Below the pieces are notes generated by a model. It was not told the DNA's origin and did no database searches. It saw only the letters and a list, made by a program, of their open reading frames with translations. A stretch of 49,089 nt of DNA from Brachybacterium nesterenkovii (GTDB lineage: Bacteria; Actinomycetota; Actinomycetes; Actinomycetales; Dermabacteraceae). The stretch's first letter is position 1; each line of letters opens with the position of its first letter. The stretch is taken from NCBI RefSeq assembly GCF_900163655.1, contig NZ_FWFG01000027.1, positions 1 through 49,089 on the forward strand, written 5' to 3'. Below are positions 8,798-15,128 of the stretch, piece after piece. The translations under genes and the position numbers were made by a program.

Positions 8798-8851
8798 AGG
8801 CCTCGCCCACACGGCGCAGCGGTGGGCCGGGGGAGGGCGCGCGGCGCTGGC

Positions 8852-8857
8852 TAGACT
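8852..8857 (+). promoter_or_regulatory. Putative -10 element of ffh
   Basis: TAGACT, 33 bases before the ffh GTG; identical to the hexamers before ftsY and rpsB. Confidence 0.5.
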
Positions 8858-8890
8858 GGTGCGGTTCCGACACCAAGGGGAAGCGCAGAC

Positions 8891-10477
8891 GTGTTCAACA
8901 ACCTCTCCGATCGCATCACCGCGTCCCTCAAGGGGCTGCGCGGCCACGGCCGCCTGTCCGAGGCCGACGTCGACAAGACCATCCGCGAGATCCGGCGCGC
9001 CCTGCTCGACGCCGACGTCGCGGTTCCGGTCGTCCGCGAGTTCACGGGGAAGGTGCGCGAGCGCGCCCTGGGCGAGGAGGTCTCCAAGGCCCTGAACCCG
9101 GCCCAGCAGGTCGTCAAGATCGTCCACGACGAGCTGATCCAGGTGCTCGGCGGCGCGACCGGCGAGCTGCACTGGTCCAAGAACCCGCCCACCGTGATCA
9201 TGCTCGCGGGCCTCCAGGGCGCCGGCAAGACCACGCTCGCGGGCAAGCTCGCGAAGTGGATGAAGGACCAGGGCCACACGCCGATGCTGGTCGCGGCGGA
9301 CCTCCAGCGCCCCAACGCCGTCACCCAGCTGCAGATCGTCGGCGAGCGCGCGGGCGTGCCCGTCTTCGCGCCCGAGCCCGGAAACGGCGTCGGCAACCCG
9401 GTGCTGGTGGCGATGAACGGCGTCTCGAACGCCCAGTTCCAGCAGCACGACGTGGTGATCGTCGATACCGCCGGCCGCCTCGGCGTCGACGAGGAGATGA
9501 TGCAGCAGGCGCGGGACATCCGCGACGCGATCCATCCCCACGACACCCTGTTCGTCGTCGACGCGATGATCGGCCAGGACGCCGCGCGCGTGGCCGAGGC
9601 CTTCCGCGACGGCGTCGGCTTCACCGGCGTGGTGCTGTCCAAGCTCGACGGCGACGCCCGCGGCGGCGCCGCCCTGTCGATCACGGGCGTGACCGAGCGC
9701 CCCATCCTGTTCGCCTCGACCGGCGAGCAGCTGGGCGACTTCGAGCGCTTCCACCCGGACCGCATGGCCGGGCGCATCCTCGACATGGGCGACGTCATGT
9801 CGCTCATCGAGCAGGCCGAGCGGACGTTCGACCAGGCCCAGGCCGAGAAGATGGCGGGGAAGCTCGCGAGCGGAGAGGACTTCACGCTCGACGACTTCCT
9901 GACGCAGATGCAGCAGCTCAAGAACATGGGCAGCCTCAAGAAGATGCTCGGGATGCTCCCGAACATGGGGCAGTACCGCGAGCAGCTCGAGAGCTTCGAC
10001 GAATCCTCGATCGGCCGCATCGAGGCGATGATCCAGTCGATGACGCCCGCCGAGCGCCGCGACCCCAAGCTCATCAACGGCTCGCGCCGCGCCCGCATTG
10101 CCAAGGGCTCCGGCACGAGCGTCGGCGAGATCAACCAGCTGCTCGAGCGCTTCAAGCAGGCCCAGCAGATGATGCGCTCCATGGGCGGCGGCATGCCGGG
10201 GATGCCGGGCATGCCGGGCGCCGGTTTCGGCAAGAAGAGCCGCGGGCGCCAGGCGCCGCAGGGCCCCAAGAAGAAGGCCAAGTCGAAGAACCCCGCCAAG
10301 GCCGCGCGCGAGCTCGCCGAGGCGGAGAAGAAGGCGCAGGAGTCCAAGGGCTCCGCGTTCGGCGGCGGCCAGGTCCCGCAGGGCGGCCACTTCGGCGGCG
10401 GCCAGATGCCCGACCTCTCCGACATCGACCCGAACCAGCTGCCCAAGGAGCTGCGGGGGATGTTCGGCGGGCGCTGA
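8891..10477 (+). CDS. ffh: Signal recognition particle protein Ffh
   Basis: The SRP54 GTPase that binds signal sequences and 4.5S RNA and docks with FtsY. It has 528 residues, with an N domain followed by a G domain containing GLQGAGKTT (107-115), DLQRPNAV, DTAGRLGVDEEMM and SKLDGDARGG. The methionine-rich M domain includes KKMLGMLPNM and the RNA-binding stretch SRRARIAKGSG, then MMRSMGGGMPGMPGMPG. The tail is Lys/Gly-rich. It starts with GTG after AAGGGGAAG. In the final position, CGGCGGGCGCTGAC including the stop is copied 24 bases downstream, beginning a tandem array. Confidence 0.97.
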   Translation: MFNNLSDRITASLKGLRGHGRLSEADVDKTIREIRRALLDADVAVPVVREFTGKVRERALGEEVSKALNPAQQVVKIVHDELIQVLGGATGELHWSKNPPTVIMLAGLQGAGKTTLAGKLAKWMKDQGHTPMLVAADLQRPNAVTQLQIVGERAGVPVFAPEPGNGVGNPVLVAMNGVSNAQFQQHDVVIVDTAGRLGVDEEMMQQARDIRDAIHPHDTLFVVDAMIGQDAARVAEAFRDGVGFTGVVLSKLDGDARGGAALSITGVTERPILFASTGEQLGDFERFHPDRMAGRILDMGDVMSLIEQAERTFDQAQAEKMAGKLASGEDFTLDDFLTQMQQLKNMGSLKKMLGMLPNMGQYREQLESFDESSIGRIEAMIQSMTPAERRDPKLINGSRRARIAKGSGTSVGEINQLLERFKQAQQMMRSMGGGMPGMPGMPGAGFGKKSRGRQAPQGPKKKAKSKNPAKAARELAEAEKKAQESKGSAFGGGQVPQGGHFGGGQMPDLSDIDPNQLPKELRGMFGGR

Positions 10478-10674
10478 CTTTCCTGCGCCGGCGGGCGCTG
10501 ACCCGGCGGTCTGCCGCCCGCGGGCGCTGGCCCTCCTGCGCCGGCGGGCGTTGCCCCTCCTGCGCCGGCGGGCGTTGCCCCTCTGCGCCAGCGGGCGTTG
10601 CCCCTTCCGCGTCGGTGGACGCTGACCGTCCCGCTTCATTGGGCGCTAGCCCTCCTGCGTCGGCGGCGTGCCCC
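10465..10674. repeat. 24-bp tandem array seeded on the ffh stop codon
   Basis: About eight decaying units of a 24-bp phrase, roughly TCCTGCGCCGGCGGGCGTTG plus CCCC. Units start near 10481, 10505 (longer), 10534, 10558, 10582, 10605, 10629 and 10653; 10534-10557 and 10558-10581 are identical. The 14-mer CGGCGGGCGCTGAC at the very end of ffh (10465-10478) recurs exactly one unit later (10489-10502). Confidence 0.8.
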
Positions 10675-10774
10675 GCGGTGGGCAGCGGCGCGGGTGGGTC
10701 GGCGGTGTGCTCCCGTGGGGGCGGTGCCGGTTCCGGGATGATGCCCCTCGCGGTGCCGCGTGGGATGAGAACCT

Positions 10775-10838
10775 CGAAATGAGCCGTTCAGACGGCTCAC
10801 TTCGTGTGTCTCGCGGCCCGAAATGGCTCATTTCCGCG
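10775..10838. repeat. Palindromic element A, upstream of the DUF559 gene
   Basis: A 64-bp element built from two inverted repeats. The first is TGAGCCGT (10780-10787), loop TCAG, ACGGCTCA (10792-10799), extended after one mismatch by CGAA/TTCG to a 12-bp stem. A spacer with TGTGTCTCG follows. The second is GAAATG-GCT-CATTTC (10820-10834). A gap-free related copy (element B, 11890-11953) lies on the other side of the gene, matching at about 44 of 64 positions by hand count. It may be a dispersed repeat, a structured RNA or an operator. Confidence 0.6.
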
Positions 10839-10934
10839 TTCTGGTCAGATCCGACCAGGCCGCCAACGCTTCCTCCCCACGCCGACTTCTCCACCGGGCC
10901 TCCCGATCGAGCGCGGCTCCGGGTCTGCACCGCC

Positions 10935-10940
10935 TAGCGT
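10935..10940 (+). promoter_or_regulatory. Putative -10 element of the DUF559 gene (leaderless type)
   Basis: TAGCGT, six bases before the ATG at 10947. The methyltransferase gene at 38237 (minus strand) has the same hexamer at a seven-base distance. Confidence 0.45.
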
Positions 10941-10946
10941 CCGGGC

Positions 10947-11840
10947 ATGGCCTTGCACGCTGACGATCTGGAACCCGGGCGCGTGTACACCCGTGCGGAC
11001 CTCCTCGAGCGCGGCGCGCACTCGCGTCTGTTCACCTCGGGCACCCTCCTCCGGGTGCTCCCCGGCTGCTACACCCGCGCCGACGCCCCGGCATCGCTGC
11101 ACGAGATCGCCCGCGTCCTCCAGGTGCGCCGGATGCCCGGTGCGACGATCAGCCACGAGAGCGCGGCCGAGCTGCTGGGGCTCCCGCTGCCGATGCATCT
11201 CACCCGTGCAGGCGGCGCGCTGATCCACTGCCGAAGCGGTGCCGGCGGGCGGGTGAGGCGCGGCCGCCTCGTGCATGCCCACCCGTCGGACCCGCCGCTG
11301 CGCTATCGCGTCCGCGGTCTCCTCGTCTCGCATCCGGTGGTCGTCCTCCAGGAGCTCACGGCGCGGATGACGCACAACGAGAGGGTCATCGCCCTCGATG
11401 CCCTTGCGGGTCGGGGGACCGCGATCCCGCAGATGCCGCTCGCTCGGATCCGGGAGGTGGCCGCCGACCTGCAGGGCCGTGGAGCGCAGCGCGTCCGCGA
11501 TGCGGCCGGCGATGCCCGCGAGCGCGTGTGGTCACCGATGGAGACCCGCACGCGGCTGCTCCTCGTCCGGGCCGGGTACCCGGAGCCGACGCCGAACCTC
11601 GAGGTGCGCGATCCGCTCACGGGATCGCTCGTGATCCTGGATCTCGCCTTCCCTGTCCTCCGGGTCGCCATCGAGTACGACGGCGATCAGCATCGTGTCG
11701 ACCGTGCGCAGTGGCGGCGCGACAGGCACAAGGACGAGATGCTGCACCGGCTCGGCTGGGTCATCCTGCGGATCACCGCCGATGATCTACGGGTCCCGGA
11801 TGCGTTCTTCCTGCGCCTGTCCGCGGCGCTCGAGCGGTGA
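10947..11840 (+). CDS. AbiEi-like / DUF559 PD-(D/E)XK nuclease-fold protein
   Basis: A 297-residue protein. The N-terminal part (residues about 10-60) resembles the winged-helix AbiEi antitoxin domain (RVYTRADLLERGAHSRL, LLRVLPGCYTR). The C-terminal part (about 195-295) is a DUF559/Vsr-like restriction-endonuclease fold: Glu199 in SPMETR, Asp232, then AIEYDGDQH with Glu243 and His249, Asp259, and GWVILRITADDL. Such genes are abundant in actinobacteria and often labelled type IV toxin-antitoxin antitoxin. No AbiEii toxin is present here. Palindromic elements A and B flank it, and it sits between ffh and rpsP, usually close neighbours, which suggests insertion. Substrate and role are unknown. 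Confidence 0.8.
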   Translation: MALHADDLEPGRVYTRADLLERGAHSRLFTSGTLLRVLPGCYTRADAPASLHEIARVLQVRRMPGATISHESAAELLGLPLPMHLTRAGGALIHCRSGAGGRVRRGRLVHAHPSDPPLRYRVRGLLVSHPVVVLQELTARMTHNERVIALDALAGRGTAIPQMPLARIREVAADLQGRGAQRVRDAAGDARERVWSPMETRTRLLLVRAGYPEPTPNLEVRDPLTGSLVILDLAFPVLRVAIEYDGDQHRVDRAQWRRDRHKDEMLHRLGWVILRITADDLRVPDAFFLRLSAALER

Positions 11841-11889
11841 CCGGAGGGGTGGAGGAACCGGCGTTCGCTCGGTCCCTCGCCGAGATCGT

Positions 11890-11953
11890 CGAAATGTGCC
11901 ACTTCTGCGGCTCGTTTCCTGTGTCTCGAGGCGCTGTTCGGCTCGTTTCGTCG
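11890..11953. repeat. Palindromic element B, downstream of the DUF559 gene
   Basis: In the same orientation and register as element A. Shared blocks are CGAAATG, CGGCTC, TTC, TGTGTCTCG and GGCTC-N-TTTC. The inverted-repeat pairing is weaker here than in A. It lies in the 302-bp gap (11841-12142) before the amidohydrolase, which otherwise holds only that gene's promoter. Confidence 0.6.
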
Positions 11954-12130
11954 ATCTCGTCGTCGGGGCAGACGGGGGGTGCGGCGTGGCGAGTCGTCAG
12001 CCGTCGCGAGAGGGGGACGCTGGTGCTGGTGCTTCCTCCTCTGCGGTATGGCGGCGCCCTGCGGTCTCGATCGAGGTGGGGGCGCCCGCCTGGGGCGGCG
12101 CATGCCCTGGTCGCGAGCGGGGCACGATGG

Positions 12131-12136
12131 GAGACT
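12131..12136 (+). promoter_or_regulatory. Putative -10 element of the amidohydrolase gene (leaderless type)
   Basis: GAGACT followed by six bases and ATG 12143. The xerC promoter at 23510 has the same hexamer and spacing. Confidence 0.45.
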
Positions 12137-12142
12137 GGCCCG

Positions 12143-13423
12143 ATGGACGACACGTCGACGGCGACCACGCCCGCCGCCCCTGGTCCCGAGGACCTGCCCG
12201 CAACCGCATACGGTCCCGAGGACCTGTCCGCCCATGTCGCCGCCTCCCGCCGCCGCGCGACCGAGGCCCCATACTCCGCGCCGGATCCGACAGGCGGGCC
12301 CGTCGTCCACCTGACCGGGCCGATCATCATCGGCCCCGATGCGGAGCTGCCCGAGGCCTGGGTGGTCGACGGGCGGATCCGCCATGAGCGCCCCGACCTG
12401 CCCGCGGGCGCCGAGGTGCGCCGCATCGACGGTTTCGTCGTCCCCGGTCTCGCGGACCTCCACTGCCACATCGGCATCGGCGACGACGGGCGCGGCACGA
12501 GCCTCGCCGAGGCCCGCGCCCAGGCGCGCACCGACCTGGCCACGGGCGTGACCCTCATCCGCGATGCCGGCTCGATCATCGACACGAGCCCGCTCCAGGC
12601 CGAGCCGGGCCTGCCGCGGATCATCCGCCACGGCCGCCATGTCGCCCGCACCCGGCGCTACCTCATCGGCTATGCCCACGAGGTCGAGCCCGAGGAGCTG
12701 GCCGACGCCGTCGCCGCCCAGGCCGACGCCTCGGACGGCTGGGTCAAGCTCGTGGCCGACTGGATCGACCGCGGCGCCGGCGACCTCACGCCGACCTTCG
12801 ACGGCCCCGCCTTCGCCCGCGCCGCGTCGGCAGCCCACGAGCACGGCGCCCGGATCACGGCGCACACCTTCGCCGAGGACACGCTGCCGCTGCTGCTCGA
12901 CGCCGGCTTCGACTGCCTCGAGCACGCGACGGGCCTGACCGACGAGACGATCGCGCGAGCGGCCGCCGCCGGTGTCCCCGTCGTCACGACCCTCGTGAAC
13001 GTCGGGCATTTCGAGGACTACGCCGTCCAGGGCGAGGCCAAGTTCCCCGACTACGCGGCGCACATGCGACGCCTGCGGGAGCGGCGGTACGAGCGGACCC
13101 GGGACGCCCACGACGCCGGGATCCGCCTCCTGGTCGGCACCGACGCCGGGGGAGTGCTCGGCCACGGGATCGTCCACGACGAGCTCGACGAGATCGCCGC
13201 CTGCGGCATCGATCCGCTCGGAGTCCTCGATGCCGCGATCTGGGGGCCCCGGGAGCTCCTCAGCGCGCCCGGCCTCGAGGACGGCTCCCCGGCGGACCTC
13301 GTGGTGGTCGAGCAGGACCCGCGGACCGACCACCGGGCGCTGCGGGAACCGGGGATCGTGATGGTCGCAGGACGGATCGCCGTCGAAGCCGGGGCGATGG
13401 CAGGGCTGCGGACGGGACGATGA
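12143..13423 (+). CDS. Amidohydrolase family protein (metal-dependent, imidazolonepropionase/prolidase-like)
   Basis: A 426-residue TIM-barrel hydrolase. Metal ligands are visible: His107 and His109 in LHCHIGIG, the bridging lysine in DGWVKLVADW, the histidine in ARITAHTF, the histidine in CLEHATGL, and the aspartate in VGTDAGG. The C-terminal beta segment (PADLVVVEQDP) completes the composite domain. Substrate cannot be told from sequence; related enzymes cleave Xaa-Pro or cyclic amide bonds. The frame is open from 11837, but the region before 12143 is element B and promoter DNA. The N-terminus contains a small in-frame duplication (GPEDL twice). Confidence 0.88.
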   Translation: MDDTSTATTPAAPGPEDLPATAYGPEDLSAHVAASRRRATEAPYSAPDPTGGPVVHLTGPIIIGPDAELPEAWVVDGRIRHERPDLPAGAEVRRIDGFVVPGLADLHCHIGIGDDGRGTSLAEARAQARTDLATGVTLIRDAGSIIDTSPLQAEPGLPRIIRHGRHVARTRRYLIGYAHEVEPEELADAVAAQADASDGWVKLVADWIDRGAGDLTPTFDGPAFARAASAAHEHGARITAHTFAEDTLPLLLDAGFDCLEHATGLTDETIARAAAAGVPVVTTLVNVGHFEDYAVQGEAKFPDYAAHMRRLRERRYERTRDAHDAGIRLLVGTDAGGVLGHGIVHDELDEIAACGIDPLGVLDAAIWGPRELLSAPGLEDGSPADLVVVEQDPRTDHRALREPGIVMVAGRIAVEAGAMAGLRTGR

Positions 13424-13437
13424 CCGAGGAGGGGACG

Positions 13438-14105
13438 ATGCACGAGGCACTGGCGCGGATCGCTGAGCAGATCGAGGGGACGCGCTTCCCGACGGCCCGC
13501 GATGCGAACCGTACCGTCCGGCTGATGTCGACGCCTGGTGCGATGCCATGGCCGATCGTCTGCGCAGTGCCGGCCCCGCGGACCGCGAGGAGCTCTCCGC
13601 TCATGCCCGCGACGCGCGCTTCGCGACCATGGGCTTCGGGCGCGGCTACGCATGCGAGGACGTCGACCTGTTCCTGAACGGTGTCGTCGTCGGCATCGCC
13701 GAGGCCGTGTCGCCGGCGGCCGAGGCTGGGGCCGGGGTGGGGTCTGCGGCCGAGCCGGCAGCGTTCGCCGAGTCGTTCCCGGAGGTAGACGCCGCGGGGC
13801 CGCCCGTCGTGGACGAGACACCGACCTCGCGGGTGGCGGCGATCCTGGACGAGGCGTTCCCCGCTCCGATCGGCGAGGACGACTACGAGGTCGCGGACAT
13901 CGAGGCCGTCGTGGCCGAGGTCCGCACGGCGCTCGCCGGGGGAAGGGAGGAGGCCGATCGCTGCGTCGCCGCCCTCGCCGCCCTGACCGCGGCACGACCC
14001 CGACAGGCCGCCCCCGGCATCGGCGGCTGGGACCGCGAGCGGGTCGACGCGGCGCTCATCGCCGTCGCCGAGCAGCTCCGCAGCGGCGCCGAGCGAGCGG
14101 GCTGA
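13438..14105 (+). pseudogene. DivIVA-motif protein gene interrupted by a one-base frameshift
   Basis: Frame 1 from ATG 13438 (after GAGGAGGGG) reads MHEALARIAEQIEGTRFPTA and then leaves the family pattern. Frame 3 resumes at about 13506 with [15 protein letters not shown] and a second motif, [13 protein letters not shown]. Both are DivIVA-type N-terminal motifs (RFPTAR, then Y-x-x-x-x-V-D-x-F/W). Adding one base at about 13504-13506 would join them through [12 protein letters not shown]. The corrected protein would have about 222 residues with an Ala/Val-rich acidic C-terminal half. As written, the downstream part could start only at ATG 13548. Either a recent pseudogene or a sequencing error. 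A related intact gene lies at 32110. Confidence 0.65.
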
Positions 14106-14126
14106 GACACTCCATCCGTCGGCAGC

Positions 14127-14174
14127 GCCCCGTCGCCCCGTCGCCCCGTCGCCCCGTCGCCCCGTCGCGCCGTC
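14127..14174. repeat. 8-bp tandem repeat, six units
   Basis: Five exact copies of GCCCCGTC and one variant (GCGCCGTC), 21 bases after the stop of the DivIVA-motif gene. A slippage-prone run in the 299-bp gap before rpsP. Confidence 0.85.
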
Positions 14175-14270
14175 CATCGCTCCGTGCCACCGCGGCCCGG
14201 GCGGTGTGGAGCGGGGCACATCACGCAGTGAGCCCGGGGCGAGCGTCTGGCACCCCCGCCGCGGCCCTGG

Positions 14271-14276
14271 CATACT
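14271..14276 (+). promoter_or_regulatory. Putative -10 element of the rpsP operon
   Basis: CATACT, about 130 bases upstream of rpsP. No clear -35. It would give a leader of about 120 nt in which I recognise no known RNA motif. Confidence 0.35.
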
Positions 14277-14404
14277 GGTCGGCTGTATGCGTCCTGGCCG
14301 GCCCTCTACCCGCCGGGACGCGGCACCCCGAGCATCGACAGCGCCCGCATGACCCCACAGGCAGCGTCGAGGCTCACCCGAACATCTCCGAAGGAGCGCC
14401 ACAC

Positions 14405-14884
14405 GTGGCCGTCAAGATCCGTCTGAAGCGCATGGGCAAGATCCGTGCACCGTACTACCGCATCGTCGTGGCCGACTCGCGCAAGAAGCGCGACGGCGCC
14501 GTGATCGAGGAGATCGGCAAGTACCACCCCACCGAGAACCCCTCGGTCATGGAGGTCGACTCCGAGCGCGCGCAGTACTGGCTCGGCGTCGGCGCGCAGC
14601 CGACCGAGCAGGTCGCCGCGATCCTCAAGGTCACCGGTGACTGGGCCAAGTTCACGGGCGAGGGCGACACCGCCGGCACCCTGAAGACCGCCGAGGCCAA
14701 GACCTCCGCCGAGGATGCGATCGCCGAGGCCGACAAGGCCGCCGCCGCCAAGCGCGAGGAGGCCGCCAAGGCCAAGGCCGAGGCCGAGAAGCCCGCCGAG
14801 GACGAGGCCGCCGAGTCCGCCGATGAGGCCCCCGCCGCCGAGAGCACCGAGGAGGCCGCCGAGGCGACCTCCGACGAGGCCTGA
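14405..14884 (+). CDS. rpsP: 30S ribosomal protein S16
   Basis: Ribosomal protein of the 30S body. It begins [20 protein letters not shown] and includes [19 protein letters not shown], all canonical. The protein has 159 residues; the S16 fold ends near residue 85-90. The rest is an Ala/Glu/Lys-rich, probably helical and disordered extension, as often seen in Micrococcales S16. GTG start with AAGGAG nine bases upstream. It heads the rpsP-khpA-rimM-trmD cluster. Confidence 0.97.
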
Positions 14885-14885
14885 C

Positions 14886-15128
14886 ATGAGCGCTCGCGCC
14901 GAAGCCCTCGACCACCTGGTCCGCGGCATCGTGGACAACCCGGACGACGTCCGCGTCGCCGAGAAGTCCACGCGGCGCGGCCCTCTGCTCGAGGTCCGGG
15001 TCAGCCCCGAGGACCTCGGCCGCGTCATCGGCCGCAGCGGCCGCACGGCCCGCGCCCTGCGCACCGTGACCAGCGCCCTGTCCGATGAGCCGATCCGCGT
15101 CGACATCGTCGACGTCGACCGGCGCTGA
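14886..15128 (+). CDS. khpA: KH-domain RNA-binding protein KhpA
   Basis: An 80-residue protein starting one base after the rpsP stop. The single KH domain shows the GXXG loop in RVIGRSGRTARALRT. KhpA proteins of Gram-positive bacteria bind RNA, commonly with KhpB/Jag, and affect cell division and sRNA function. The position between rpsP and rimM is conserved. A very stable hairpin follows at 15150. Confidence 0.92.
   Translation: MSARAEALDHLVRGIVDNPDDVRVAEKSTRRGPLLEVRVSPEDLGRVIGRSGRTARALRTVTSALSDEPIRVDIVDVDRR

Follow-up and report, generated by a model that had tools for sequence, protein, structure and literature searches.

The window, which is the whole stretch of 49,089 nucleotides analysed here, comes from a 3.02 Mb draft genome of Brachybacterium nesterenkovii and carries a nuclease-like gene (10947..11840, + strand) that encodes a 297-residue protein with an AbiEi-like N-terminus and a Vsr-fold, DUF559/MTES_1575 C-terminus. 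The slot that holds this gene is bordered on the left by ffh (8891..10477, + strand), the product of which has SRP54 domains. The setting between ffh and rpsP described in the original prediction was borne out, in that ffh adjoins the gene, an amidohydrolase gene comes next, and rpsP (ribosomal protein S16) is found further on. No adjacent AbiEii (DUF1814) toxin gene was found at the window locus, where the neighbors are ffh and the amidohydrolase gene. A tandem array of 24-nt units (8.2 copies, 10465-10666) runs from the end of ffh into the interval before the upstream palindromic element. An Rfam search of positions 8800-14900 yielded nothing at the gathering score, and its one match had an E-value of 0.33 and 22.7 bits versus the 56 bits required.

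The domain content claimed for the protein was tested against Pfam and defence-system models. The DUF559 assignment stands, as the match to PF04480 scored 23.7 bits (cut-off 20.6), and the match that bears on the AbiEi-like N-terminus, to AbiEi_3_N, was weak at 15.8 bits and under the cut-off of 26. The match to MTES_1575 fell just under its cut-off (34.8 versus 38.2 bits), and the PADLOC AbiEi model gave a weak N-terminal match with an E-value of 5.7e-06. The predicted structure of the window protein (pLDDT 94.4, pTM 0.90) was compared with known folds using Foldseek. Among named nucleases, the C-terminal domain best matched the homing endonuclease I-Bth0305I in its catalytic domain (probability 1.00, E 0.034, TM-score 0.73 when normalised by target length). 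Two mitoribosomal chains ranked higher with poorer superposition, and no Foldseek match to the predicted structure had an E-value below 0.001. I-Bth0305I is an intron-borne homing enzyme. The N-terminal region is presumably a winged helix, as in AbiEi. A search by sequence at an E-value of 0.1 returned no solved structure of a relative. In an alignment of 190 sequences, four acidic residues are nearly invariant (E199 in 186 sequences, D232 in 186, E243 in 181 and D259 in 183), a pattern that fits a PD-(D/E)XK site and would be consistent with a catalytic role. A degenerate active site was seen in only nine genes, five of them with a flank pair, which is too few for a comparison of active-site decay with hairpin loss.

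The gene is bracketed by two related elements, each with three arms. Element A (10767..10844, + strand) lies upstream and ends about 100 nt before the gene. Its first arm, GAGAACCTC-GAAATGAGCC (10767..10785, +), is followed after an 8-nt loop by the inverse of that arm (10794..10813, −), and a third arm (10825..10844, −) follows, with 21 nt separating the 10-nt cores of the second and third arms, a period of 31 nt. Element B (11882..11959, + strand) lies downstream and belongs to the same family, with a first arm, GAGATCGTC-GAAATGTGCC (11882..11900, +), a second arm (11909..11928, −) and a third arm (11940..11959, −). The common plan thus consists of GAGA-N5-GAAAYGAGCC, the inverse of this arm 8 nt later, and another arm in the inverse orientation 21 nt on. 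The relatedness of the two elements, which had been counted by hand as about 44 of 64 positions, is exactly 44 of 64 in an ungapped comparison of 10775-10838 with 11890-11953. None of 2000 dinucleotide-preserving shuffles equalled this value (mean 18.5, maximum 30), so the alignment withstood the comparison with shuffled sequence that had been proposed for it. The similarity extends over 80 nt at 70% identity (10767-10846 and 11882-11961), and for the two 500-nt flanks of the gene the best local alignment scored 33, which none of 500 shuffles reached. The stem of 12 bp and one mismatch described for element A was also found, while the description of the element as a palindrome plus a second short inverted repeat has to be corrected to the three-arm plan.

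Further copies of the family were found in the same genome, as the original prediction required of a dispersed repeat. The two-arm core pattern with its 8-nt loop occurs in 10 copies at up to three mismatches, versus none for the reversed control pattern; in the other 57 relatives the same pattern gave three matches, versus six for the reversed control. In all 10 copies the third arm (core GGCTCGTTTC, 0-3 mismatches, the better of the two strands being taken) starts exactly 21 nt past the second arm. The same-facing arms therefore have a period of 31 nt, which is close to three turns of B-DNA, and this phasing hints at a protein that sits on one face of the DNA double helix. The window genome also contains two paralogues of the nuclease-like gene, on contigs C10 and C16, and each of these is flanked, upstream and downstream, by a distinct set of palindromes.

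Bracketing of this kind is not confined to the window. A unified set comprised 190 unique genes (8 duplicate proteins having been removed from 198), and 180 of these had usable flanks, after exclusion of 10 genes with flanks shorter than 300 nt; matches that spanned fewer than 170 model positions were also excluded. A matching repeat pair in the two flanks, at a score of at least 25, was found for 108 of the 180 genes, whereas swapped flanks gave 21 of 1430 and neighboring genes 11 of 360; at a score of at least 30 the counts were 99 of 180, 4 of 1430 and 4 of 360. The remaining 72 genes had no pair at a score of 25. Repeats do therefore flank the DUF559 homologues, far above the control rates, which was one of the checks proposed for the locus. 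A separate survey of 500-nt flanks covered 77 genes from the window genome and its relatives, leaving out two genes shorter than 450 nt and three with flanks below 500 nt. The median best similarity was 31 versus 17 for 982 random placements, and a score of 25 was reached by 49 of 77 genes versus 45 of 982 random placements in the same loci. With the threshold set at 28, pairs were found for 41 of 72 genes in the named set (55 of 1170 placements). The phylum-wide set, five loci of which belong to the same order as the window, gave 22 of 39 (9 of 600 placements). At least one gene had a pair at this score in 18 of 24 named genera or groups, and pairs also occurred in genomes of other classes. 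The counts by genus include Oerskovia (6/7), Jiangella (4/5), Cellulomonas (3/6), Mycobacterium (3/4) and Bifidobacterium (2/6). Of 100 genomes sampled across the phylum, the window genome among them, 33 had the gene itself.

Most of the flank pairs displayed are hairpins, and a few are tandem or other repeats. A hairpin lies within 450 nt of the gene upstream in 93 of 180 cases, downstream in 86 and on both sides in 56, versus 29 of 393 control windows. The arms have a median length of about 23 bp and the loops of about 7 nt, and the median distance is 116 nt before the gene and 31 nt after it, with wide variation. GC-rich flanks do yield many weak repeats (control medians 15-18), and chance similarity or ordinary hairpins such as intrinsic terminators might be thought sufficient to account for the pairs. 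The shuffles, the genomic controls and the control rates for bracketing and hairpins exclude this for the whole set, and we regard it as scarcely credible, although single weak pairs may still be due to chance. Intrinsic terminators were rejected because a T-run stands beside the stem in only 2 of 121 hairpins. Two further observations concern the genes and their repeats. Three genomes of one genus in the same class (G094, G129 and G150) each gave 10-14 matches to the nuclease family, and several of the genes fetched from them have their own repeat pairs. In a Brevibacterium metagenome-assembled genome (L302, gene at 515-1447), both flanks are tandem arrays of units of about 30 nt, not single hairpins.

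The sequence of the hairpin differs from gene to gene, and this, together with the breadth of the phenomenon, goes beyond what the original prediction had foreseen. Recurrence was determined with 20 gene-flank hairpins and one copy of the window family, 21 families being searched in 22 genomes and places being merged. Among the matches listed, the hairpins recurred at no fewer than 82 places in their cognate genomes (28 at the gene, 54 elsewhere in the genome) versus at least 10 in other genomes. Eight of the ten listed non-cognate places are in genomes with an orthologous gene or with a gene that bears a similar hairpin: one in G057 and two in G033, the own genes of which have such hairpins, and five in G016, where the gene at L123 has an orthologue. 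The other two belong to neither group. Family sizes ranged from 1 to 14 places among the matches listed, which is a lower bound. Again among the matches listed, 16 of the 20 gene-flank hairpins had places away from the gene, and four (L096, L118, L067 and L081) had none. Two of the 20 searched hairpins (L123 and L081) were taken from genes with no pair at a score of 25.

Similarity between hairpins follows similarity between proteins. A hairpin similarity of at least 22 was seen in 0 of 5211 pairs with protein identity below 60%, in 9 of 38 pairs at 60-80%, and in all four pairs above that, and the Mantel correlation of 0.35 was reached in 0 of 999 permutations. This link could be explained by common descent of the whole locus. 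In terms of the form in which the palindrome acts, within-family covariation showed a slight excess in one family (8 of 500 shuffles) and none in another (237 of 500), and mismatches in the stems were 61 G-T versus 52 A-C, with no strand-specific excess of G-U. The weak covariation and the lack of an RNA-type mismatch bias suggest that the palindrome may matter as double-stranded DNA and not as a folded strand. In six Brachybacterium loci (L054, L055, L057, L071, L072 and L075) the stems differ, and common letters resembling CTTCC...GGAAG stand beside the loop; these are a possible common recognition core. At another locus (L203, about 1221-1382, G012:C3), a single intergenic gap contains hairpins of two different families, with about 45 nt between them.

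The slot after ffh offers a view of the history of the gene. Among 29 genomes with readable sequence after ffh, the window genome included, a homologue follows ffh directly in 10 and is absent there in 19; one further locus ended at ffh and is outside the 29. Six of the nine best homologues lie after ffh (G031, G010, G028, G026, G022 and G021), another lies about 4 kb from ffh (G032), and two are not beside ffh (G019 and G034). The gene thus seems to be inherited in place at least in part, as judged from these positions. The hairpins in this slot are not the same. Five ffh-slot genes with a clear hairpin (G000, G010, G020, G028 and G031) have five different ones. Within 11 ffh-slot loci, the own flanks of the gene agree at a score of 25 in four, one of which (L069) is not visibly a hairpin. 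When the flanks of different slot orthologues were compared, upstream with downstream reached this score in 1 of 110 comparisons, and upstream with upstream in 9 of 55, the latter maybe because of the common ends of ffh.

Differences between closely related species were seen at the dispersed copies as well. G016, G025 and G029 are related species with about 92% identity at ffh. Five G016 copies of one family were compared with G025, and four were at orthologous sites, which indicates that any movement is slow. At G016:C12:483958 a hairpin is present, and G025 and G029 have in its place 2.4 kb in which the hairpin search found none. A second hairpin, in G025, is missing from G016 at another site, where G029 is disturbed by a G-rich run. 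At a third, intergenic site, G016 has one hairpin, G025 and G029 have another, and G035 has a shorter gap with neither. The aligned flanks of the differing sites are about 86-96% identical between species, and comparison of the occupied with the empty sites shows no clean insertion flanked by target duplications. These differences between G016, G025, G029 and G035 are gains, losses or replacements. A loss of the gene was considered at one locus of G029 (L404, about 1200-1340), but long poly-C/G runs stand there in place of the hairpin region and look like an assembly artefact; if assembly fails at such a palindrome, draft genomes may undercount these elements.

These data bear on the possibility that the whole unit is a mobile cassette, a transposon driven by the nuclease, with the palindromes as its terminal repeats and the scattered copies as its solo ends or miniature derivatives. 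The repeats that bracket the gene, the presence of the gene beside ffh in some genomes and its absence there in others, and the site where relatives hold 2.4 kb of other sequence would all suit this model, and the two of the nine best homologues that lie elsewhere slightly raised our confidence in it. TIRtrons (PMC3733652) provide a precedent. However, inheritance in place would account for the six of the nine best homologues that lie after ffh, and the scattered copies that were aligned are single elements and not element-length pairs around a gene. The distances between gene and hairpin vary widely, and viral contigs gave only four weak, partial homologues, on which basis a phage origin was also rejected. 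We consider a cassette of this kind rather improbable.

The placement of the dispersed copies was determined with gene calls from a simple ORF method and not a trained gene finder. Intergenic positions accounted for 54 of 65 copies versus 298 of 1400 random positions, the 65 being what remained of 70 after removal of one duplicate, one gene-flank copy and three orthologous repeats (before removal, 59 of 70 were intergenic, with 28 in convergent, 29 in tandem and 2 in divergent gaps). The 54 intergenic copies were distributed over convergent, tandem and divergent gaps as 27, 25 and 2, where the numbers of such gaps are 161, 456 and 143. The rarity of copies in divergent gaps and their bias toward convergent ones speak against a regulon of operators.

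An operator model is nonetheless the main and serious rival. In it the protein would be an AbiEi-like autorepressor, with the nuclease domain as an accessory, and would bind the arms; the copies in the flanks would regulate the gene that encodes it, and the dispersed copies would regulate others. The AbiEi-like N-terminus of the protein, the exact 31-nt period in 10 of 10 copies, the end of element A some 100 nt upstream of the gene and the stem mismatches without RNA-type bias are all what such a model would lead one to expect. In PMC7319586, AbiEi antitoxins are described as binding inverted repeats in their own promoters, and Rv2827c as binding two sets of them. The model does not predict the cognate copy downstream of the gene, however, and it has to contend with the 2 of 54 copies in divergent (promoter) gaps against 27 in convergent ones, with sites that differ between species despite well-conserved aligned flanks, and with the conservation of nuclease-type residues. 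On balance we judge it unlikely, although less so than the cassette. The alternatives that had been offered at the outset, a regulatory RNA or an operator pair, thus fare less well than the dispersed repeat: the placement of the copies argues against operators, and the lack of an Rfam match at the gathering score in 8800-14900 and of a G-U bias argues, weakly, against a regulatory RNA.

A role in defence or addiction was also considered, in which the nuclease would attack foreign DNA and the palindromes would mark self or hold the nuclease as decoys. The window protein does match AbiEi, Hhe and ProA proteins of defence collections, but these matches are partial and weak, and the immediate neighbors at the window locus are ffh and the amidohydrolase gene. 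Marking of self alone would also leave the species- and paralogue-specific sequences without an explanation. This role appears very improbable.

The arrangement most closely resembles the REP/REPIN-RAYT systems. In PMC3733652, PMC3116915 and PMC8266576, these are described as an enzyme gene flanked by palindromes, with a cognate family that occupies intergenic, mostly convergent or co-directional, gaps. A palindrome-flanked enzyme gene (108 of 180, versus 21 of 1430 and 11 of 360 in the controls) and a dispersed extragenic family (distant places for 16 of 20 hairpins among the matches listed, and 54 of 65 copies intergenic) are found here as well. In contrast to REP-RAYT systems, the enzyme is of the Vsr fold and not of the HUH/Y1 type, and Y1_Tnp (PF01797) was detected in 0 of 22 genomes, while a control search was positive in 5 of 14. 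The tags of the GTAG/CGTC REP superfamilies are not clearly enriched either, with GTAG beside 10 of 121 hairpins versus 31 of 605 random places and CGTC beside 31 of 121 versus 215 of 605; membership in these superfamilies with a RAYT was therefore rejected. The listed copies per family (1-14, a lower bound) are far fewer than those of classical REPs, and the system described here is found in Actinomycetota.

Other known systems share single features with it. According to passages of PMC3733652, TIRtrons are RAYT-like genes between unrelated inverted repeats, some of which are repeated in the genome, so that gene-specific repeats that sometimes form families are common to both; the TIRYTs described there keep the HUH motif and the catalytic tyrosine, whereas the window protein is of another fold. 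The AbiEi antitoxins of type IV toxin-antitoxin systems, which bind inverted repeats according to PMC7319586, have a weak N-terminal sequence match to the window protein. They differ in that the C-terminus here is nuclease-like and not an antitoxicity domain, and in that the palindromes here lie on both sides of the gene and are dispersed. I-Bth0305I and the Vsr-fold families (DUF559, MTES_1575 REase) would be related to the C-terminal domain by the modelled fold and the conserved acidic residues; the dispersed palindromes set the window system apart from I-Bth0305I. Among the matches listed in a search of the open-access literature, no link was found between DUF559 or Vsr-fold genes and palindromes, and no paper listed there joined DUF559 with AbiEi. 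We rate the system as new by its enzyme and by the pairing of enzyme and repeat, and its layout as convergent with a known kind.

Taken together, the data are best explained by a REP-like repeat system that is tied to a homing-endonuclease-like protein and is analogous to, but not homologous with, REP-RAYT. We assign this reading a probability of roughly 0.58, slightly lowered by the two close homologues that lie away from ffh (G019 and G034). The proposal that the locus holds a nuclease-linked dispersed repeat resembling REP and RAYT, with a PD-(D/E)XK protein in the place of the transposase, is thereby supported by the copies and by the cognate bracketing. In the mechanism that we envisage, the AbiEi-like N-terminal domain would bind the arms of the palindrome, for which the 31-nt period would fit double-stranded DNA, and the Vsr-fold domain would cut at the arms or at partial sites. 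Repair of the break would then place copies of the palindrome at new or diverged sites, in the way that an intron is copied in homing, and would give the elements their mobility. Homing-like copying of this type would account for the match between the two flanks of a single gene despite the differing palindromes of orthologues in the same slot.

We give about even odds to a broader reading, in which a REP system of a second kind evolved independently and extends across Actinomycetota. A homing-type nuclease of the Vsr fold with an AbiEi-like domain would recognise, copy and homogenise its own palindromes by cutting partial or unoccupied sites, with no transposase involved, and specificity and repeat would turn over together in each lineage. 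In the papers cited above, the enzymes of REP-type repeats are HUH proteins. If a nuclease of another fold does the same, such systems arose more than once. The finding, if true, would also give a role to a family that is so far named only by its domain, and it would explain the scattered hairpins in many actinobacterial genomes. Each pair of gene and palindrome is in effect a test of specificity, and with about 100 natural pairs available, the co-evolution of enzyme and repeat becomes directly testable.
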